Origin: Bacteroidales bacterium
Lineage (GTDB): Bacteria > Bacteroidota > Bacteroidia > Bacteroidales > UBA932
Direction: 5' to 3'
Assembly: GCA_024401895.1 (NCBI GenBank)
Contig: JAKSKE010000007.1
Span: 1 to 48,741 of the forward strand
DNA: 48,741 nt
Shown in pieces: positions 29,550 to 41,331 of the stretch (position 1 is its first letter; the number at the start of each line of letters is the position of its first letter). The notes beneath the pieces were generated by a model that was not told the origin of the DNA, did not search any database, and saw nothing but the letters and a program-made list of their open reading frames with translations. The translations under genes were made by a program, and so were the position numbers.

Positions 29550-30248
29550 CTACCAGTCGGTTCTGGAACAGTAGTCGAAACTTGTGCTGGCGGTTGTGCC
29601 AGTAGCGGAGCTGTTCCATTTGAGAGTCAGTTTCACGGTCTTTCCGTTTGTGTCGGGAAGGCTCTTGAGCGGGAAATTGATGTATCCCTGGCCTTCCATA
29701 AGGGGCTCGTCTCCGCCGGCATTGTACCTGAGCTGAACCTCATAGGGGTCGTCGGGATTTGCGCCGTAAACCAGATTTATAGTGTGGTTATTGTCGGGGT
29801 CGGAGAAAGGAAATACAAAAGCCACGCAAAGATATCCGTCCTCTATCATTGTGGTAGGAAATACCGTATCTCCAAGATACAGCCCGATTTTGTCGTTTCC
29901 GTAAGCGGCGGCATCGTCGGAGGTGTGAGGCACCGGAGCCTTTGTAGCGATTGTGTCGGCCGCCTGAAGGTCAACGAGCCTTGTCTCGGAATAGCCTTGG
30001 ATGGAAATGGTGGCAGGGCCGTAGTCGGCATAGCGGATGATCAATCTCTTTTCAGATTCCTTGAAAGGATAGGCGACCTTTGTCCTTGGGGTAAGAGCGG
30101 TATTCTCGGCAACTTCCATAAAGTAGCTTCCGTCGGCCGTAGGCCTCATTGTAACCGTACCATAAGCCAGGACATAGGGATTTTCCTGTCTGTTGCAGGC
30201 GCACAGCGTCATTGCAGACGCCAATAAAACAATCAAAAGTTTTTTCAT
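29550..30248 (-). CDS. NigD-like lipoprotein
   Basis: A 232-residue lipoprotein (lipobox Cys18, LCAC) resembling NigD-like proteins of Bacteroides: an N-terminal OB-like part (ENPYVLAYGTVTMRPTADGS, then YFMEVAENTALTP and LIIRYADYG) and a C-terminal beta-sandwich (YLCVAFVFPFSDPDNNHTIN, VQLRYNAGGD). Despite the name no bacteriocin immunity role is shown for this family in general. I start it at 30248 at the signal peptide rather than 30266. It follows the transporter-rhamnosidase gene after 24 bases and is probably the last gene of the long pyr-containing operon. Confidence 0.8.
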   Translation of the reverse strand: MKKLLIVLLASAMTLCACNRQENPYVLAYGTVTMRPTADGSYFMEVAENTALTPRTKVAYPFKESEKRLIIRYADYGPATISIQGYSETRLVDLQAADTIATKAPVPHTSDDAAAYGNDKIGLYLGDTVFPTTMIEDGYLCVAFVFPFSDPDNNHTINLVYGANPDDPYEVQLRYNAGGDEPLMEGQGYINFPLKSLPDTNGKTVKLTLKWNSSATGTTASTSFDYCSRTDW

Positions 30249-30272
30249 GATATATGATATAAACAATAAATA

Positions 30273-33005
30273 TTACTCAGTTATGACTACTCCGGAAGGA
30301 GCGCTGATATCTGTTTTCAAAAATCCTGCCGCAGTTTTGCTCACACTCACGCTAACAACTCCATAAGGTGTTGGGAATGAGCCTTTTGCCCATTCCAGAT
30401 TACCCAAATGAGGTTCTATGCGCAGTTTGCGTCCCCCGTCAGAAATGTCAGTGACACCCAGGATATACTGCGTAAGGAAAGTCGCCGGCCCGGAAGCCCA
30501 GCCGTGGCAGAAGCTGTGACGGTAGCCTTTGTAGCAGTAATTCCCATAGGTCCTGTGGACATCGGTCTTCCCTTCGGCGGGAGCCTCGTCGATGCGTCCG
30601 GCACCCTCCATCCAGTCTATGTCGAAATCTTCCCAGAAGGTAGTGGCTCCAAGGTCCAGCATCCCGCCCCAATATTCCGAAATTATGTCCATTGCAGCCT
30701 GGTACTCTCCGGCCTTGGCGAGAGCCTGAAGCATATAGAAGCCGTAAAAGGTTGAAAATCCGTGGGAACCTCCGCGCAGGATTTCCTGTGCGGCATCCCG
30801 GGCAGGCATAATGCCGGCCAGGCTCATAAGGGCAAGCGCCTGTTTGCGTCCGGGCAGTGAAGGGTCTTTCCGCTCGTCCAGGAAGGATTGGAGACGTTGT
30901 GGCGCGGCCCGGGCAAGAATGGCCCCTGCGTCGGCGCAACGAAGCGCGAGTTCTTCTTCTCCAAGGATTGAACAAAGCTGCTGTCCGGCTTCCATAGCCA
31001 TTATCATCAGGGACTGCAACCCGCAGCCTATGGCGGTAGGGTCGGCGTTGGAAGGCCAGTCGAGGAAACGGCCGCCGTCCAGACACTCGATGCCGTCGGC
31101 GCCGATACATCCCAGGAGCTGGTCTATGAGCGCACACACATACTGCCGCTGGCCTTCAAGGTAAGCGGCATTGCCCTGGTAGCAGTACCAGTCGCGCTGA
31201 ATGAGCAACCACCATATTGAATACGAACTGATTGCGTTCATCCAGGCATTTCCGCGGCCGGCGACAATGGGGGTTTCGTCGCGTACCAGGTCGAGGCTGC
31301 GCTCGACGCAGGGTACCCATCCGTAAGCATTGCATATTGTCATCACCTCGGGATGCATATCCCCTATCCATACCAGACGGTCCCGTTTTATTCCGTCCCA
31401 CACATAGTTCTGCATATTCTGGCTTACCGTATATACAGCCGTCTCCCATATACGGTTAAGCCGGCTGTCGCTGCAGCAGAAACTGCCCTTCAGCGGCACG
31501 TCCAGACATTCGTTGTAGGCCGAGACTTCCCGCAGAAGCAGGATATCGGAGGGGTCCTGCACGTCGATGCGCGCGAAGCGGAAGCCGCTGCCGCCGAATT
31601 CCCGGCAACCCAGCCAGGGCAGTTCGGTCACGAAATCGCGTACTGCGTGGTCGTTCCCTGCCCCGTTGTGGCCGTCAATGTCGCAGCAGGCCTCGCTGTA
31701 GGATTCTCCGAACCGGATTCTCACCTTGACAGGCTTTCCACCGGGATACTGGCCGGTAACGATGCGCAGGCCGCCCTGCAATTCCTTTCCAAAGTCGAGC
31801 AGCAGTGCCGCTCCCGAATTACCCTGCGCCATAAGACAGCAGCAGTCCTTGCTTCCAAGGACTGCCTGACCCTTTCCTTCCGAAAGGAGTAATGTATCGT
31901 CTTTAACCGAACCGCTCAGGGGAATGGTTCTGACAGGGCTTACATACCGTCGCACTACCGCGGCTTCGGCATTCTCCCGCACCGGTTCGGGCTCACGCGA
32001 TTTTATAAGCTCCGGCACGAAGGTGCTGAACACCAGAATTGCCAGACCCAGCACCAGAACCAGCACCGTTTTCTTCGTAACTCCCTTCCATTCCTTGAGG
32101 ATAATTCCCCACACATTGGAGAAAGTGACGTTGAGTGCCATAAGGATACACCAGCTGAAAGTGATGAGGGCCGGATATTCGCTCAGGAATCCCTTGCCCA
32201 GGCTGAGCCCGAAGAACTGGCTGTACCACAGCAGTCCGGCCAGCGCGCAAAACAGTATATTGCTGCGCCACAGAGCAGGTTTGGCATAGTCTCCAAAGGT
32301 CTTGTTCTTCCTGTTCTGGAGCAGACAGTAAACGGCATTTGTAAGGAATCCACCCAGGGTTACCAGCAGGGTGGCCGGCAGGGACTTGAATATTTCGGGG
32401 CTCTGTTCAAAGTGCAGGGGCGCTCCGAAACTCAGGCCAATGTTGAAGCAGGCGCTCATAAAACCGGCCAGCAGGGCCACCGCAATGCCCTTGGGGAAGT
32501 TGAAGTCCTTGACTGCTTTCTTCTTTTCCTCTTCGGGCAGGGTCGCGGCCTTCATAGCTCCGGCTACGCCTATGATGGCTATACCTACAAGGGTTACAAC
32601 CACGCCTATTATCACACTGGAGGTAAGGTCGGCTGCGTGTCCCGTGAACACCGGTCCCAGAATTGCTCCCAGCCCGGCACAGGTTCCAAGGGCAATGCTC
32701 TGCCCGAGGGCCACTCCCAGGTAGCGCATCGAAAGCCCGAAAGTAAGGCCACCCACTCCCCACAGCATTCCAAAGAGTATGGTAAGGAGGGAATCGCTGG
32801 GATTGGCGGCTACCAGCTCCCATAGAGAATGCCCCTGCGGAACTGCGAGCAAGGCTCCCAGCAGAGGGAAAACCAGCCAGGCAAAAATGCCCTGCACAAG
32901 CCAGTATGATTCCCAGCTCCATTTCTTAATTCTATTGATTGGCACATAACTGCTCGATTGGCAGAACGCACCGGCTGCAATGATTATCAGTCCTATTATC
33001 AGCAT
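30273..33005 (-). CDS. RhaT-type rhamnose:H+ symporter fused to a GH78-like alpha-L-rhamnosidase
   Basis: A single 910-residue frame with two enzymatic parts. Residues 1-335 match RhaT along their length, with ten membrane helices; INRIKKWSWESYW and MRYLGVALGQSIALGT are close to the E. coli protein. Residues 375-500 resemble the beta-sandwich of bacterial rhamnosidases (LLLDFGKELQGGLRIVTGQY), 505-845 an (alpha/alpha)6 catalytic domain with WDGIKRDRLVWIGDMHPE (Asp537, Asp542, Asp549) and TTFWED (Glu792, likely general base), and 855-910 the C-terminal beta domain. At the position I align with the general acid, Asp542 replaces Glu. Basic loops (NRIKK, KEEE/KKK region, RKNK, KEWKGVTKK) fall after helices 1, 5, 7 and 9, so by the positive-inside rule the C-terminus is periplasmic. 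The hydrolase has no signal peptide of its own. It lies 18 bases after pyrB. Confidence 0.88.
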   Translation of the reverse strand: MLIIGLIIIAAGAFCQSSSYVPINRIKKWSWESYWLVQGIFAWLVFPLLGALLAVPQGHSLWELVAANPSDSLLTILFGMLWGVGGLTFGLSMRYLGVALGQSIALGTCAGLGAILGPVFTGHAADLTSSVIIGVVVTLVGIAIIGVAGAMKAATLPEEEKKKAVKDFNFPKGIAVALLAGFMSACFNIGLSFGAPLHFEQSPEIFKSLPATLLVTLGGFLTNAVYCLLQNRKNKTFGDYAKPALWRSNILFCALAGLLWYSQFFGLSLGKGFLSEYPALITFSWCILMALNVTFSNVWGIILKEWKGVTKKTVLVLVLGLAILVFSTFVPELIKSREPEPVRENAEAAVVRRYVSPVRTIPLSGSVKDDTLLLSEGKGQAVLGSKDCCCLMAQGNSGAALLLDFGKELQGGLRIVTGQYPGGKPVKVRIRFGESYSEACCDIDGHNGAGNDHAVRDFVTELPWLGCREFGGSGFRFARIDVQDPSDILLLREVSAYNECLDVPLKGSFCCSDSRLNRIWETAVYTVSQNMQNYVWDGIKRDRLVWIGDMHPEVMTICNAYGWVPCVERSLDLVRDETPIVAGRGNAWMNAISSYSIWWLLIQRDWYCYQGNAAYLEGQRQYVCALIDQLLGCIGADGIECLDGGRFLDWPSNADPTAIGCGLQSLMIMAMEAGQQLCSILGEEELALRCADAGAILARAAPQRLQSFLDERKDPSLPGRKQALALMSLAGIMPARDAAQEILRGGSHGFSTFYGFYMLQALAKAGEYQAAMDIISEYWGGMLDLGATTFWEDFDIDWMEGAGRIDEAPAEGKTDVHRTYGNYCYKGYRHSFCHGWASGPATFLTQYILGVTDISDGGRKLRIEPHLGNLEWAKGSFPTPYGVVSVSVSKTAAGFLKTDISAPSGVVITE

Positions 33006-33023: not shown

Positions 33024-34103
33024 TTATACTATTATTGAATCGCAGTATGCGCAGCGCACCACTCCGTTCTCACCCTTGTGGACAAGCGGAGCCACATTTT
33101 CGTGGTTGGAGATGCACTTGCTGTTACGGCACTGGGCCGTTGCGCAGGAATAGAAACCGGAAGAAGCCGGAGCCGTGCGCGACTCGTCATCCTTCCACTC
33201 CAACAGCCTGCAAATGAGCGCCATCCTCACGAATTTACCGTTTTCCACCTGCCTGAAGTAAGCCGCCCTGGGGTCGGAATCCACCTCGGGGCAAATCTCA
33301 TTCACCCTGGGGAGAGGATGCAGCACTGCCATCTGAGGCTTTGCCAATTTCATTTTTCCTGCATCCAGCACAAAGCTGTCCTTTACCCTTTCGAACTCTT
33401 CTTCATCCAGGAAACGCTCCTTTTGAACGCGGGTCATATAGAGCACGTCGAGTTCTCCTATAACCTCCTCTATGGTAGACACTTCCCTATAGGTTATGCC
33501 CATCCGGTCGCAGACGTCCTGCTTGATATAACCGGGGAGCCTGAGTTCGGGAGGTGCAATGAGGATAACCTTAACGTCACGGTAGCGCGACAGAGCCTTG
33601 ATAAGGGAATGGACGGTGCGGCCGAATTTAAGGTCGCCGCAGAATCCTATGGTTATTCCGTCTATGCGGCCGAGTTCCCGTTTAATGGTCAGGAGGTCGG
33701 TAAGGGTTTGGGTAGGATGTGCGTGAGAGCCGTCTCCGGCATTGATTACAGGCACCTCGGACACCGTAGATGCAACGTAGGGAGCACCTTCGAGCGGATG
33801 CCGCATTGCAATTATGTCGGCGAACTTGCCCACTACCCTTACCGTATCGCCGACGGTCTCACCCTTACTGACAGACGAACTCCTGGCATCCGAGAACCCC
33901 AGGACATTGCCTCCCAGTTCCATCATAGCTGCCGTGAAACTGAGTCTGGTGCGGGTGCTGGGCTCATAGAAGAGAGTGGCCAGTTTGCGGCCGCGCATTC
34001 TGTCGCTGTACTTTTCCCTGTCGGCTATTATATCCTGAGCCAGGCTTATAATGGAATTGGTTTCCTCCAGAGTGAGGTCGGTAGGGTCTATGAGATGTTT
34101 CAT
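33024..34103 (-). CDS. pyrB: Aspartate carbamoyltransferase with fused PyrI-type zinc domain
   Basis: Makes carbamoyl-aspartate from carbamoyl phosphate and aspartate, second step of UMP synthesis. Residues 1-305 are a normal catalytic chain: [46 protein letters not shown] and HPLPRVNEI. Residues 316-359 are extra and match the zinc domain of the regulatory chain PyrI (C325RNSKC330ISNHENV ... C351AYC354), with the Cys-x4-Cys and Cys-x2-Cys spacing of that domain. The nucleotide-binding domain of PyrI is absent and no pyrI gene is in the window. Full PyrB-PyrI fusions are known in other bacteria; a zinc-domain-only fusion is unfamiliar to me. It overlaps pyrE by four bases. Confidence 0.93.
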
Positions 34104-34708
34104 AAACTGTTTCGGAAATTAAGTACGGTTTGTTTCTGTTCTGCGGTAATATATTTTTCCTCCACGGCAACGTCCACGAGTGTGTCCAGGTTGGACAGGG
34201 AGTGATTCTCGACTTTCGCTGCGGCAAGCCTTTCAACGCCCTTCTTAAGGCCGTAGGTGAATATGCTCACGATTCCCAGTACCTGCGCTCCGGCTTCGCG
34301 GAGGGCTTCAACCACGTCTATTACACTGCCTCCTGTAGAAATGAGGTCTTCTATTACGACCACTCTGGTGCCGGGCTCCATTTTCCCTTCTATTTTATTG
34401 TTTCGGCCGTGAGTCTTGGCTTCGCCTCTCACATAGCCCATAGGCAGGTCCAGAATCGCCCCGGCAATTGCAGCGTGGGCTATCCCGGCCGTACTTGTTC
34501 CCATAAGCATCTGAACCGTAGGGTAATATTCCATTACCGTATTGGCAATCGCCTGCTCTACCTTTACCCTTGCCGTCGGAGCCGAAAGTATGAGACGGTT
34601 GTCACAATAGATGGGACTCTTTATGCCGCTGGCCCAGGTGAAAGGGTCGTCGGGTCTGAGGAACACCGCACCAATGTCGAGCAGCTGTTTTGCAATTTCT
34701 CTTTCCAT
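34100..34708 (-). CDS. pyrE: Orotate phosphoribosyltransferase
   Basis: Transfers the phosphoribosyl group of PRPP to orotate to give OMP. The 202-residue protein has the PRPP loop [14 protein letters not shown], the N-terminal [19 protein letters not shown] and the catalytic-loop [15 protein letters not shown] start it at 34708 ([10 protein letters not shown]), five bases after the pyrF stop; the frame is open to 34747, inside pyrF. It overlaps pyrB by four bases. Confidence 0.96.
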
Positions 34709-34713
34709 ATTCA

Positions 34714-35424
34714 CTATATGATTTCGTTTAAGAATTCTTTCACACACCTGCGGTACGATTCCACAGGGTCGGCCGACGCGGTAATGGGACGGCCCACGAC
34801 TATATAATCGGACCCTATCTCACGGGCCATTGCGGGAGTGGTTACGCGGCGCTGGTCGTCGGCCGCACTGTCGGCGAAACGGATACCCGGAGTCACGGCC
34901 ACGAATTCCTTCCCGCAAGCCTCCTTTACAATAGAAGCTTCCAGAGGAGAGCATACGACACCGTCCAGGCCGGCCTCCTTTGCATTTGACGCATAATGTG
35001 CGATAGTCTGTGCAATCCCGGCATTTATGAGAAGTTCCTTCTGCATCCTGTCCTCACTTGTGGAAGTCAGCTGGGTGACAGCCACCAGCACGGGGCGGGA
35101 GCCGTCTGCACGGGTCAGACCCTCCACTGCGGCGCGCATCATATCTATGGTTCCGGCCGCGTGAACGTTTGTCATATCCACATCCAGAGCCGCAAGGACC
35201 TTCATAGTCTTCCTTACGGTGTTGGGAATGTCGTGCAGTTTGAGGTCCAGAAAAATCTTATGGCCCCGGGCCTTTATCTGCCGCACTATGTCGGGACCTG
35301 CCCCATAATACAATTCCATTCCAATCTTAACGAAAGGTTTGCGGGCGCAAAGGGCGAACTTGTCAAGAAATGCGAGCACTTCAGCTCCATTGCTGAAATC
35401 GCAGGCAATAATTACGTCTTTCAT
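34714..35424 (-). CDS. pyrF: Orotidine 5'-phosphate decarboxylase, class I
   Basis: Decarboxylates OMP to UMP, the last step of the pathway. The 236-residue protein belongs to the shorter class found in Bacillus and Escherichia: [13 protein letters not shown], the catalytic [11 protein letters not shown], and [20 protein letters not shown]. Bacteroides, as far as I recall, carries the longer class II enzyme instead, so this is a possible mark of transfer. I start it at 35424, overlapping the pyrD stop by four bases (ATGA); the open frame continuing to 35856 reads through pyrD in the wrong frame. Confidence 0.96.
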
Positions 35425-36326
35425 ATTATTCCTATTATCGAATTCAAGTCGTCTATTCCATATTTGGCCATCGCCGATGGCAATTCTTCCACGATCTGCC
35501 TGCATACGAACGGATTGCGCAGGTTCTCGGCACCCACCTGCACCGCAGAGGCTCCGGCCATCATCATTTCCAGCACATCGTCGGCACAGGCCACTCCGCC
35601 GCAGCCCATAATTGGCAGACTGCACGCGTGACGCACCTGATTGACCATCCTCAGTGCAATGGGAAGAATCGCCCTCCCGCTGAACCCGCCGTACTTCTCG
35701 TGCGTCACGCAGCGGCGTGCTGCAATGTCGATTCTCATTCCAAGGACAGTGTTTATGAGGGTAAGGCCGTCGGCGCCCGCCTCTTCGCAAGCCCGCGCAA
35801 TGGCGGCAATGTCGGTAACGTTGGGGCTCAGCTTTACAAACACCGGCTTTCGGCACACCTGCTTCACGGCAGCGGTAACCTGCGCGGCACTTTCGGGGCT
35901 CGTCCCAAACGCCAGCCCTCCCCCGTGCACGTTGGGGCAGGACACGTTCACTTCTATTATGTCGGTCTGCGGGGCTTGGTCGGCCCTTGCACAGGCAGCC
36001 ACGTATTCATCTACCGAGAATCCGCTCACATTCGCTATCACCACTCCGCCAAAAATCTTCCTCAATGCAGGAAGCTTCTCATTGACAAGCACTTCCACAC
36101 CCGGATTCTGCAAGCCTACAGAATTTATCATTCCGTCCGGGCACTCGGCTATCCTGGGGCATTCGTTTCCGTAGCGAGGCTCCAAGGTAGTTCCCTTGAG
36201 AGAGATTCCACCCAGGACATCGAGGTCGTACACCCCGGCCATTTCAAGCCCGAACCCGAAAGTTCCGCTTGCCGGAATGACAGGATTACGGAACTTAATT
36301 CCGCAAAGACATACTTCGGTTACCAT
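35421..36326 (-). CDS. pyrD: Dihydroorotate dehydrogenase, NAD-linked (class 1B) catalytic subunit
   Basis: FMN enzyme oxidising dihydroorotate to orotate; with PyrK it passes electrons to NAD. The 301-residue protein has the class 1 signature with catalytic Cys in [17 protein letters not shown], the N-terminal [15 protein letters not shown] and the FMN-phosphate segment [21 protein letters not shown] start it at 36326 (MVTEVCLCG), overlapping pyrK by seven bases; the frame opens at 36365. Pairing with pyrK supports class 1B. Confidence 0.96.
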
Positions 36327-37057
36327 ATTACGTCCTCCTTGTCGAACACAGGACCGTCGGCGCACACGCGCCGGGGCCCCTTCTTAGTATGGCAGGTACA
36401 GCCATAGCATATTCCGCAGCCGCAGCCCATCCTCTCCTCGAGGCTTACCTCGCCCGGACCGCAGAGCATAGCGCACACCGCCTTCATCATAACCTTAGGG
36501 CCGCAAGTATAGAAAAAGTCATACTGCGGCCGCAACTCTCCAATCGCATCGGTCACCAGACCTTTCATCCCAAGACTTCCGTCCATTGTCACTACCGTCA
36601 CGTCTGCCCCCAACGCCCTGAAATCGTCGGCCAGCACTACGTCGCAGGCACTGTTGAAGCCCATAACCAGCTTCACCTCCCTCCCCAATGCCAGAAGTTC
36701 CTTCACCAGAGTGTAAACCGGCGAAGCCCCCAGGCCTCCACATACCACCAGAGCCTTCTCCCGACACTTGGAAGCGTCGAATCCGTTTCCCAGCGGCAGC
36801 AGCACCTGAAGTTCCTCCCCGGCCTTGAGGGAACTCATTTGAGCAGTCCCCTTCCCCACCGTCCTGTAAACCACGGTAAGCCCTCTGCCGCTCCATTCCA
36901 TAGCCGCAAGCGGGCGGCGCAGGAACCTGCCTTCCAGCATTATGTCCACGAACTGGCCGCCCCGCTCTATGGACGAGGCGTCACCGCTCAGGGTCATCCT
37001 GTAGATGTCCCTGGCTATGAGCTTGTTGCTCTCTATCTTGAACTTTATATCCTTCAT
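36320..37057 (-). CDS. pyrK: Dihydroorotate dehydrogenase electron-transfer subunit
   Basis: FAD and [2Fe-2S] subunit that links PyrD to NAD. The 245-residue protein has the FAD-binding [11 protein letters not shown] strand, the nucleotide-binding [12 protein letters not shown] and the C-terminal cluster-binding Cys set in [14 protein letters not shown] plus the later VCADGPVF Cys. It overlaps carB by four bases and pyrD by seven. Confidence 0.96.
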
Positions 37058-40000
37058 TGCGGGAGGGTCTGCTCGGCATCGATTGTAGAAATGCCCATCG
37101 TTATTTCCTCCAGTACGTCCAGAAGCACTCTCACGGTCTCCAGCGAAGTGAACAGCGTCACGTTGTTCTCCACCGCGGTGCGGCGTATCCCATAGCCGTC
37201 CAGCCTGGTACTGTGCTGGTTTATGTCAATTGTATTTATTACATAGCTTACGTGTCCCTGGCGCAGCTCGTTCATAATGTCGTCGCTGCCGTCGCTCAGC
37301 TTGCCAAGGAACCTGGTCCTGATTCCGTTCTCCTTCAGATATTCGGCCGTTCCACGGGTAGCTTCAATGTTGAATCCCAGGTTGTAGAAGCGGCGGATGA
37401 GGGGCAGCGCATCGGCCTTGTCGTGGTCGGCGATTGTAGCGAATACCGTTCCGTAGTTCACCACCTTCACGCCCGATGCCTGCAAGGACTTGTACAACGC
37501 ACGCTTGAGCGACACGTCGTAGCCTATGGCTTCGCCGGTAGATTTCATTTCGGGAGACAGATACGTGTCGATTCCCTTGAGCTTTCCAAACGAAAATGCC
37601 GGACTCTTAACGTAATGACGCTTGCGTTCGGGAAAATACACGTCTGTAATCCCCTGCTCGCGCAGCGAATGCCCCAGCATAACCATAGTGGCAATCTTTG
37701 CCATAGGAATGCCCGTCGACTTTGACAGGAACGGAACCGTGCGGGAAGAACGCGGGTTAACCTCTATAACGTACACGTCGTCATTATTGTCCACAATGAA
37801 CTGGATATTGAAAAGGCCCACTATGCCTATCTCGAGACCGAGTTTCACTGTATAGTCTATTATTTTTCCCTTCACGGCATCGCTCAGGGAGAACGAAGGA
37901 TAAACGCTTATTGAGTCGCCCGAATGAATGCCGGTACGCTCTACGTGCTCCATTATTCCCGGAATAAAGACATCCTTTCCGTCGCAGATGGCATCAATCT
38001 CGGTTTCCCTGCCCATAATGTACCTGTCCACCAGCACTGGAGAATTCTCATTGATTTCCACCGCATTGTGCAGATAGTGCCGCAGCGCCTCCTCGTTCCC
38101 CACTATCATCATAGCGCGTCCGCCCAGCACGAATGACGGGCGAACCAGCACCGGATAGCCTATTTCTTCTGCAGCCTTCACCCCGGCCTCAACGTCGGTT
38201 ACCGCACGGGCCTCGGGCTGAGGGATTCCGGTCTTTCTCATAATGGCCTCGAAAAGTTTGCGGTCCTCGGCATTGTCGATTGCCTGAATCTGAGTGCCTA
38301 TTATGGGAACTCCGAATTCGGCTATGGGGCCCGCCAGATTTATGGCAGTCTGGCCACCGAGGGTTACAATTACACCGGAAGGCTTCTCTACACGAATCAC
38401 GTTCATAACGTCCTCCACCGTCAGAGGCTCGAAGTACAGCTTGTCTGAAATGGAATAGTCGGTGGAAACCGTCTCCGGATTATTGTTTATGATGATTGCT
38501 TCGTAGCCGGCTTCGCGTATGGCCCAGATGGCGTGAACCGTAGAATAGTCGAATTCCACGCCCTGGCCTATTCTTATGGGGCCGGCTCCCAGCACCAGAA
38601 TCTTCTTCCGGTCGCTCACCACGGTCTCGTTTCCGGTCTCGTATGTAGAGTAAAAATACGGCACGTCGGTCTTGCGGGCAGCGGCACAGCTGTCTATGAA
38701 CTTGTAAACGGGGTGTATGTCCCGGCTCCACCGCCACTCTGTCATCTGCTTCTCGGTCTTTCCCCAAAGGCTGCCTATATACTTGTCGCTGAATCCCATA
38801 CGCTTGGCTTCATAAAGCACGGCAGGGTCCAGGACATTTGCCTTGAGCTCGGCTTCCATTCTCACTATCGCAGCTATCTTCTCCAGGAAGAGCATATCTA
38901 TCTTTGTGCAGTCATAAATGAGCCGCACGTCCACACCGTTGCGGATAAGCTGGGCTATGGCCAGCAGATGGTCATCCGGGAACTTTACTATATAGTCGAA
39001 GAGTTCGCGGTCGCTGAGTTTCTCGAATTTGCTCTTGAATATGTGGCTGCACCCTATTTCCAGCGAACGGATGGCCTTGAGCAGGCTCTCCTCTATGGTT
39101 CTGCCTATGCTCATTACCTCTCCCGTAGCCTTCATCTGGGTTCCCAGTTCGTTTATGGCTTCGCTGAATTTGTCGAAGGCGAAACGGGGAACCTTGCTCA
39201 CAACGTAATCGATGGCAGGTTCGCAGCAGGCCGGCGCGCCGGCAACCATAATTTCATCGAGGGTAAGCCCCACTGCAATCTTTGCGGTAACCCTGGCGAT
39301 GGGGAATCCGCTGGCCTTCGAAGCCAGGGCCGAAGAGCGGGAAACCCTGGGATTCACCTCAATTATATAATACTGGAAAGACAGGGGATCCAGTGCAAAC
39401 TGCACGTTGCATCCGCCCTCTATTCCCAAAGCCCTGATAAGTTTCAGGGCACTGCTGCGCAGCATTTCGTACTCCTTGTCGGCCAGAGTCTGGGCCGGCG
39501 CAACCACTATTGAATCTCCGGTATGAATACCCACGGGGTCCACATTCTCCATCGAACATATTGTTATGGCAGTGTCGTTGGAGTCGCGCATCACCTCGAA
39601 CTCGATTTCCTTGTAGCCCTTGACGCTCTTTTCTATAAGTACCTGGCCTACAGGAGAAAGAGCGAGAGCGCCGCGCATAAGGTCGGTCAGTTCTTCATCG
39701 TTGTCGGCAAAGCCGCCGCCGGTTCCTCCAAGAGTGAAAGCGGGCCTTGCAACCACCGGATAACCTATTTCACGTGCCGTTGCAAGCGCTTCTTCGGTAC
39801 TGTAGCATATTTGCGAAGGAATCACAGGCTCATCCAGACTTATGCAGAGTTCCTTGAAGAGTTCGCGGTCCTCGGCCTGCTCGATACTCTGGAACGAAGT
39901 TCCCAGAATCTCTACCTGACACTCGGAAAGCACACCCTTCCTGGCCAGCTTTACAGCCAGGTTAAGCCCGGTCTGTCCACCCAGCCCGGGGAGTATGGCG

Positions 40001-40251
40001 TCGGGGCGTTCGTACCTTATGATTTTAGCAACGTACTCCAAATCCAGCGGTTCCATATAAACCTTGTCGGCAATATGGGTATCTGTCATAATGGTCGCCG
40101 GATTGGAATTCACGAGAATTACTTCGTAACCCTCTTCCTTGAGAGCCAGACAGGCCTGAGTGCCGGCATAGTCGAATTCGGCGGCCTGGCCTATGACGAT
40201 GGGGCCCGAGCCTATCACCATTATTTTCTTTATATCTTTCCTTCTGGGCAT
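37054..40251 (-). CDS. carB: Carbamoyl-phosphate synthase large subunit
   Basis: Makes carbamoyl phosphate from bicarbonate, ammonia and two ATP. The 1065-residue protein has both ATP-grasp halves: [31 protein letters not shown] and [20 protein letters not shown] in the first, and [32 protein letters not shown] and [20 protein letters not shown] in the second. The C-terminal 130 residues are the allosteric MGS-like domain ([18 protein letters not shown]). These parts look fully functional. It lies three bases after carA, which has lost its glutaminase residues, so free ammonia is the likely nitrogen source. It overlaps pyrK by four bases. Confidence 0.97.
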
Positions 40252-40254
40252 AAA

Positions 40255-41331
40255 TCAGTCCTCCATCATCTTAACAAATTCATCGAAGAATTCACTCTCC
40301 CGCGGGCCAGGTGCACCTTCGGGACAAAAAGCTACCGAAAACACCCTGTCGGCATCGCAGGAAATTCCCTCTACCGTAGAGTCAACCACATTGAGATGAG
40401 TAATCTGCAGGCCGGCGGCCTTTGCACTGTCGCCGTCCACGCTGTAGTGGCAGCTGTGCATTGCGGTGAAGATTCTGCCTGCACTCAGACTGCGCACCGG
40501 CATATCGCCGTATTGCCCGCAGCCGGACTTCTCTACTTTTGCACCGTAAGAAAGGGCAATGAGCAAATGTCCGAGCCCTGTTCCGGCAAGGGGATACCGG
40601 CCCCGAAGCCCTTTCAGGAGCGATACAATCTCCTCCAGTTCCATAGGATTCCCGGGGCCTCCGCTAACCAGGACTCCGTCGGGATTGAAAGCGGCTATTT
40701 CGTTGAGCGTAGAATTAAACGGCACCACGGTAACGTTGCATCCGCGCTCGTTGAGCGCTTCAATCATTCCGTGCTTCACCCCGCAATCCAGAATCACCAC
40801 GTCGAAACGGTGGTGAGGGGTGCGGGAGAACCATCTCTTGCGGCAGCTCACGCCGGCAACGGGATGCCCTTCGGGCTTATGGCCGGCAATTATTTCCAGG
40901 GCCTGTTCCAGCGGAGTCCCGGCAGGCACGATAGCGCCCATCAGCGAACCGTTCTCGCGTATGATGTGTGAAATCATTCGGGTGTCCACCCCGCTTATAC
41001 AGGGTATGCCGTGCTCCTCCAGTTCCTCGGACAGTGTTTTGGTGTAGCGGAAGTTGGACGGGGTCGAACTGCACTCCCTTACCACCAGACCGGCAAGCCT
41101 GGGAGTACGGGATTCGTAATCCTCGTCGGTAATGCCGTACTGCCCTATGGCAGGGTAGGTCATAACCACTATCTGGCCGGCATAGGCCGGGTCTGAAATT
41201 ATTTCCTGATAGCCCACCACCGAGGTGTTGAAGACTATTTCGCCTACGGCCGGAAACAGTGCGCCGCTCGCTATTCCGTAGAACTCCTGTCCGTTTTCCA
41301 GAACCAGCTTTAATTTGGCAGATGAATTCAT
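40255..41331 (-). CDS. carA: Carbamoyl-phosphate synthase small subunit with inactivated glutaminase
   Basis: The small subunit normally hydrolyses glutamine and passes ammonia to CarB. This 358-residue protein has the right length and N-terminal domain (GEIVFNTSVVGYQEIISDPA, YAGQIVVMTYPAIGQYGI) and keeps SGGPGNP of the glutaminase fold. The active site is lost: the motif normally G-I-C-L-G-H-Q reads G-T-G-L-G-H-L, with Gly252 for the nucleophilic Cys (codon GGG, 40576-40578), and the motif normally F-H-P-E reads F-C-P-E, with Cys336 for the catalytic His (codon TGT, 40324-40326). Glu338 of the triad remains. The usual Q-N-H-G segment reads MHSCHY. The frame is intact, so a structural role is likely kept. 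It overlaps pyrC by four bases. Confidence 0.95.
   Translation of the reverse strand: MNSSAKLKLVLENGQEFYGIASGALFPAVGEIVFNTSVVGYQEIISDPAYAGQIVVMTYPAIGQYGITDEDYESRTPRLAGLVVRECSSTPSNFRYTKTLSEELEEHGIPCISGVDTRMISHIIRENGSLMGAIVPAGTPLEQALEIIAGHKPEGHPVAGVSCRKRWFSRTPHHRFDVVILDCGVKHGMIEALNERGCNVTVVPFNSTLNEIAAFNPDGVLVSGGPGNPMELEEIVSLLKGLRGRYPLAGTGLGHLLIALSYGAKVEKSGCGQYGDMPVRSLSAGRIFTAMHSCHYSVDGDSAKAAGLQITHLNVVDSTVEGISCDADRVFSVAFCPEGAPGPRESEFFDEFVKMMED

Follow-up and report, generated by a model that had tools for sequence, protein, structure and literature searches.

One conserved gene joins a RhaT-family permease to a GH78-type alpha-L-rhamnosidase in Cryptobacteroides and may place rhamnose release beside rhamnose import

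A single minus-strand frame of 910 residues in the window, by which we mean the whole 48,741-nucleotide stretch of Bacteroidales DNA analysed here, encodes a RhaT-family permease (residues 2–328) that runs in frame into a GH78-type alpha-L-rhamnosidase (residues ~350–906). Judged by its sequence, the frame is one conserved gene and not two genes joined by error. Its product is probably one inner-membrane protein that acts both as the cell's L-rhamnose importer and as a periplasmic alpha-L-rhamnosidase. Both halves come from known families; the architecture of these known parts is new. The carrier is a gut bacterium, rhamnose is a plant sugar, and relatives join a RhaT-type pump to other sugar-cutting enzymes.

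The identity of the two halves was established by profile matches, structure models and alignment (Table 1). The RhaT half matched Pfam PF06379 far above its gathering cut-off (159.4 versus 27 bits) over model positions 5–335 of 344, and hydropathy together with a structural match of the model gave ten transmembrane (TM) helices with the DMT fold. When the RhaT part alone was searched by sequence against solved structures, no match was obtained up to E 1. In the enzyme half, the Bac_rhamnosid6H match scored 57.5 bits against a cut-off of 24.5, and the C-terminal Pfam domain 23.0 against 22.1. Residues D567, E572, D579 and E841 of the structure 2okx, which we take to be the catalytic acidic residues of GH78, all have acidic counterparts in the fusion, with D542 representing a conservative change relative to E572. 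By sequence and prediction, both domains of the fused protein are intact.

Table 1. Coordinates of the fused gene, its parts, its neighbours and related gene sets (positions are those of the window unless a locus is named)
Feature	Coordinates	Strand	Basis or remark
Fused gene RhaT-GH78	30273..33005	-	complete, 910 codons + stop; ortholog L031:5974-8697
RhaT permease domain, residues 2-328, ten predicted TM segments	32022..33002	-	Pfam PF06379, 159.4 bits; hydropathy; DMT fold
TM segment 10, residues 313-331	32013..32069	-	hydropathy; model helix 311-334
Permease-enzyme linker, residues ~335-349	31959..32003	-	pLDDT <50 at 335-339; first strand at 350
GH78 N-terminal beta-sandwich part, residues ~350-505	31491..31958	-	model strands; aligned with 2okx, 3cih
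GH78 six-hairpin catalytic domain, residues 506-847	30465..31490	-	Pfam PF17389; alignment with 2okx, 3cih
D537, aligned with 2okx D567	31395..31397	-	same in 30/30 GH78 rows (28 unfused + 2 fused)
D542, aligned with 2okx E572	31380..31382	-	Asp in 30/30 rows
D549, aligned with 2okx D579	31359..31361	-	same in 30/30 rows
E792, aligned with 2okx E841	30630..30632	-	same in 30/30 rows
GH78 C-terminal domain, residues 850-906	30288..30458	-	Pfam PF17390
pyrB-like aspartate carbamoyltransferase gene	33024..34103	-	Pfam OTCace_N, OTCace, PyrI_C; 18 bases upstream of fusion
NigD-like protein gene	29550..30266	-	Pfam NigD_C; 6 bases downstream of fusion
Glycyl radical enzyme-activase-cupin-like-RhaT-type permease set	L162:9124-12562; L164:9658-13087; L160:3538-6964		permease fused
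Glycyl radical enzyme-activase-cupin-like-RhaT-type permease set	L177:7169-11716; L178:2428-6913		permease separate

The NCBIfam equivalog for RhaT, NF010022, has a whole-protein cut-off of 369 bits, which the fusion did not reach (361.1 bits). The same was true of the fused ortholog described below (361.6) and of three of four unfused close relatives (L054, 363.9; L073, 366.0; G022, 351.0); the fourth, G012, scored 370.9, and the RhaT of the more distant locus L111 scored 464.3. The equivalog name was withheld, and the likely specificity for rhamnose was taken from the operon context of relatives.

A second species, Ca. Cryptobacteroides fimicaballi (genome G294, locus L031), carries a RhaT-GH78 fusion about 85% identical to that of the window. 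The architecture is therefore the same in more than one species. The ratio of nonsynonymous to synonymous substitution (dN/dS) between the two orthologs was 0.047 for RhaT, 0.031 for the stretch 332–366 and 0.098 for GH78, values that are rough since dS ranged from 1.05 to 1.76 and was near saturation. Both halves and the linker thus look to be under purifying selection across a large synonymous divergence. Among the RhaT columns invariant in 29 unfused rows, 162 of 164 are kept in the window and 161 in the ortholog; for GH78 columns invariant in 28 unfused rows, the window keeps 118 of 127 and the ortholog 116. In the ortholog, Bac_rhamnosid6H was found, and the Pfam GH78 C-terminal domain had no match at E 0.001. 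The ends of the two orthologs (30273–30320 in the window and the end of the L031 gene) differ sharply past about residue 895, perhaps because one of the two changes frame at its end.

That a missed stop, a frameshift or a chimeric contig had joined two genes was considered, since the draft assembly that holds the window consists of 64 contigs. The same junction is found in a separate assembly of another species, ~85% identical and with low dN/dS through the linker. An artefact was rejected on this ground, and we give it practically no chance. The statement of the earlier note that a RhaT-like transporter and a GH78-like hydrolase share one 910-codon frame is confirmed, with an in-frame ortholog in a second species, and its description of both halves as complete is borne out by the Pfam domains, the folds, the conserved invariant columns and the retained acidic residues.

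Next, we considered on which side of the membrane the enzyme lies. Lysines and arginines in the loops of the window's RhaT, as delimited by hydropathy, numbered 19 in the odd loops (1, 3, 5, 7, 9) and 2 in the even loops (0, 2, 4, 6, 8). The odd loops exceeded the even ones in all 47 aligned RhaT rows (odd 14–20, even 2–5), and a protein of a second RhaT subfamily fused to GH92 (P0002) had 15 versus 2 in the same direction. The positive-inside rule therefore predicts an N-out/C-out protein with both ends in the periplasm. The E. coli RhaT topology likewise has both ends periplasmic. The stretch after TM10 provides no periplasmic argument of its own, as residues 332–360 hold six K/R and five D/E. 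Similarly, because the termini of several DMT transporters of similar structure are cytoplasmic, the match to the DMT fold leaves the orientation unsettled.

The unfused relatives of the enzyme point the same way. A signal-peptide-like start, called at a threshold of 2.0 by a simple hydrophobicity rule and not by a trained predictor, was present in 25 of 29 unfused GH78 relatives and absent from the fused enzyme (the set comprised 30 rows including the fused ortholog, and L044 and L045 fell narrowly short, at 1.96). Hydropathy and the model put the start of the enzyme ~15–18 residues past helix 10. Because an N-out/C-out protein is predicted and the unfused relatives look exported, the GH78 enzyme is most likely periplasmic and tethered to the importer. 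This agrees with the proposal in the earlier note of a periplasmic hydrolase devoid of its own signal peptide, as predicted by the loop charges of the window and of the 47 rows and by the relatives. In the best reading, the transporter would serve as export device and anchor for GH78.

Two other placements of the enzyme were weighed. If the C-terminus faced inward, GH78 would cleave rhamnosides after their import. This would fit the GH78 relatives at two Lachnospiraceae loci (L076, L081), which have no signal-peptide-like start, and the cytoplasmic termini often seen among DMT relatives, but it runs against the positive-inside bias in the window, in P0002 and in all 47 rows and against the exported look of most unfused relatives. 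In addition, the partners of the second RhaT subfamily, GH92 and GH28, belong to families of exported enzymes in Bacteroidales. We regard a cytoplasmic enzyme as very improbable. Alternatively, the enzyme could be a separate polypeptide, made from an internal start near residues 314–330 as a signal-anchored or free GH78, or released by cleavage of TM10 in the manner of a signal peptide. Signal-peptide-like starts in most unfused GH78 rows, several unfused GH78 alignments that begin at fusion residues 307–318, at or near TM10, and GTG codons at 314, 318, 325 and 330 would accord with this. However, the sole signal-peptidase-like motif in residues 325–370 starts at 346, ~15 residues beyond TM10, the first ATG from residue 301 onward is residue 392, within the beta-sandwich part, and the linker stretch appears to be under purifying selection. 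A separate enzyme is thus improbable, if slightly less so than a cytoplasmic one.

The fusion appears to have taken the place of the usual rhaT. Two other genomes of the genus (G022, G018) have the gene order rhaB-rhaA-rhaT-rhaD, while in both carriers (the window's genome, G000, and G294) rhaA is followed after two bases by rhaD, with no rhaT between them. Among the matches listed, neither carrier had a RhaT match besides the fusion, although a second RhaT could be missing from the data because both assemblies are ~76% complete. Both carriers have RhaA, a rhamnulokinase-like RhaB, a RhaD identified by similarity and a GH106 rhamnosidase; RhaB fell below its equivalog cut-off, as it did in all four genomes tested, and in the window's genome rhaB is on a different contig from rhaA-rhaD. 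In another family, locus L111 holds rhaB, rhaA, rhaT, rhaD, GH78 and GH106 in one gene run, with RhaT and GH78 as separate genes.

In both carriers the fused gene sits behind pyrB, away from the rha genes, and co-regulation with rhamnose use is therefore not evident. The pyrB-like gene, which is also the neighbour in locus L157, closes what looks like a run of pyrimidine genes ahead of the fusion. This run, of pyrimidine and carbamoyl-phosphate genes, occupies 33024–41331 of the minus strand immediately upstream of the fused gene, and L157 keeps the arrangement; pyrB was identified by Pfam and the remaining genes were named from sequence only. The flanking genes are alike on both sides in the window and in Ca. 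C. fimicaballi except for the NigD-like gene, which was not seen at the corresponding place in L157.

Herein, we propose how the protein would work. The RhaT part, with ten helices and both ends periplasmic, would import L-rhamnose. A linker of roughly 15 residues after helix 10 would lead into the GH78 enzyme, and the permease would carry the enzyme across the membrane and hold it there, replacing the signal peptide of the unfused relatives. Rhamnosides reaching the periplasm would be cut by the tethered GH78. The freed rhamnose would then appear beside the importer, enter via the attached RhaT and be degraded inside by RhaA, RhaB and RhaD. Sequence is the basis for the domain identities, the selection and the missing rhaT; we infer the orientation, both activities, their coupling and whatever kinetic or ecological advantage proximity would bring. 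A putative coupling of hydrolysis to uptake that limits loss to competitors is plausible.

A fusion without coupling is the most serious rival. RhaT could be an anchor or export device that transports no rhamnose, or the join could be neutral in a genus prone to fusions. The genus does contain other GH78 fusions (GH78-GH106 at L112; GH78 with an endonuclease/phosphatase-like domain at L114), and the fusion is not located with the rha genes. Yet the RhaT half is the more constrained one, with its low dN/dS and nearly all invariant columns kept, and the carriers retain rhaA, rhaB and rhaD with no other RhaT match among those listed. A separate RhaT-GH92 fusion would also be unexpected for a purely accidental join, though two events are few. 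We consider a tether without coupled transport rather unlikely, and a protein that both cleaves and imports remains the preferred reading.

To see how common the fusion is, surveys were made at several taxonomic levels. Searched with the GH78 part, 54 of 340 genus genomes had a GH78 match and two (G000, G294) had RhaT-GH78 in frame. RhaT matches were found in 79 of 393 order genomes, with only the window's in a frame longer than 405, and in 49 of 395 phylum genomes, with only the window's in a frame longer than 440; neither survey showed a further fused RhaT. Two RhaT surveys of 400 genus genomes each gave 180 and 178 genomes with a match, of which the stronger rows were listed. In a search for relatives (315 stretches, 246 relatives), one (L031) of the 80 kept was fused. 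Transporter-glycosidase fusions had been called rare; the fusion is indeed rare, but it is not unique, given the second species and a parallel RhaT-GH92(-GH28) fusion in the same genus. No report of a RhaT-glycosidase fusion was found in searches of the open-licence PMC literature, although one may be in print.

Several candidates were dropped. A 1237-residue frame in G058 (L003) looked like a fusion, but the DNA (L111) has separate RhaT and GH78 genes. Loci L050, L081 and L083 had long match spans without a RhaT-GH78 fusion. The long GH78 frames of L112 and L114 have partners other than RhaT: L112:6666-11441 combines GH78 and GH106, two alpha-L-rhamnosidase families in one chain, and L114:2460-4958 combines GH78 with an endonuclease/exonuclease/phosphatase-family domain. 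The GH78 frame of G254 (1684) is similarly long to the former and that of G061 (842) has the same length as the latter; in each of these genomes the single RhaT match is found in another frame, 336 or 339 long.

A second RhaT subfamily in Cryptobacteroides (RhaT2), 36–37% identical to the RhaT of the window, is also fused to glycosidases. At least seven copies, 66–100% identical to the query, occur in at least six of 400 genus genomes, and all seven copies listed run in frame into GH92. The RhaT2-GH92 part is complete in L158 (= L113:166-3750), L162 and L164, where GH92 has a PA14 insert; in two of these, L162 and L164, a GH28 domain is added, which makes permease-GH92-GH28 chains of ~1645 residues. 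Contig ends truncate L161 and L163, and L160 breaks off 13 residues into GH92. A single genome contributes both L160 and L161, which match at 237 of the 251 residues they share and so may represent variants of a single gene. In L159 a stop codon lies midway through GH92, 36 bases from the contig end, and is either a contig-edge error or the sign of a broken gene. The L162 fusion is followed by a TonB-dependent-receptor gene and a SusD-like gene, the latter by our own naming.

In a tree built by a quick method, with long branches flagged, the RhaT-GH78 and RhaT2-GH92 fused groups fell on separate, strongly supported branches. Rows more than 90% identical were dropped (L031 among them), L161 was left out as too short, and L149 was scored as unfused solely owing to the early end of its contig. 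As the fused groups lie on separate branches, two origins are the simplest account, and the RhaT2-GH92 fusion is apparently of independent origin. The stand-alone RhaT2 relatives L177 and L178 adjoin a glycyl radical enzyme, its activase and a small cupin-like protein, and the fused L160, L162 and L164 adjoin the same set; the glycyl radical enzyme of L162 reached no NCBIfam equivalog cut-off.

These parallel fusions suggest that the design has arisen more than once. A wider reading, which we offer tentatively and at less than even probability, is that Cryptobacteroides has repeatedly built "cut-and-import" proteins: a RhaT-family permease with its own periplasmic glycosidase (GH78, GH92 or GH92-GH28) that would release the monosaccharide at the importer's mouth, so that cleavage and uptake would be truly coupled. 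If true, such proteins would give glycan use a final step that is covalently linked and private, set between import through the outer membrane by SusC/D-type systems and the cytoplasm. Sugars freed by glycan foragers are believed to be lost to neighbouring cells; a permease that brings along its glycosidase would directly answer this loss, and the idea is easily tested because whole and split versions can be compared. Since their partners are normally exported enzymes, the fusions may also act as natural reporters of RhaT topology.

RhaT L-rhamnose-proton symporters (PF06379, DMT superfamily) are described from E. coli and Bacteroidales (PMC3870299). The fusion resembles them in its Pfam match over nearly the full model, its DMT fold and its relatives in rhaB-rhaA-rhaT-rhaD runs; it differs in that unfused members here have ~330–400 residues, while the fusion adds a ~570-residue hydrolase and lies away from rha genes. 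Over residues ~347–910 the enzyme shares the fold of the GH78 alpha-L-rhamnosidases 2okx (Bacillus sp. GL1) and 3cih (B. thetaiotaomicron), and the acidic positions compared agree, with Asp at 2okx E572 in the window as in all 30 rows of its GH78 subfamily. Unlike them, it follows a permease and has no signal peptide of its own. RhaT2-GH92(PA14) and RhaT2-GH92-GH28 are alike in having a RhaT-family permease, a short linker and a glycosidase in one frame, but the window has another RhaT subfamily, another enzyme and a separate tree branch (compared with L113/L158 and L159–L164). In Nitrospira marina, a SulP-type bicarbonate transporter is fused to a carbonic anhydrase (PMC8115632), which likewise places a transporter and an enzyme for the transported substrate in one chain. 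The parts of that fusion are unrelated to those described here, and its enzyme would act on imported bicarbonate, whereas the enzyme of RhaT-GH78 would act before import.
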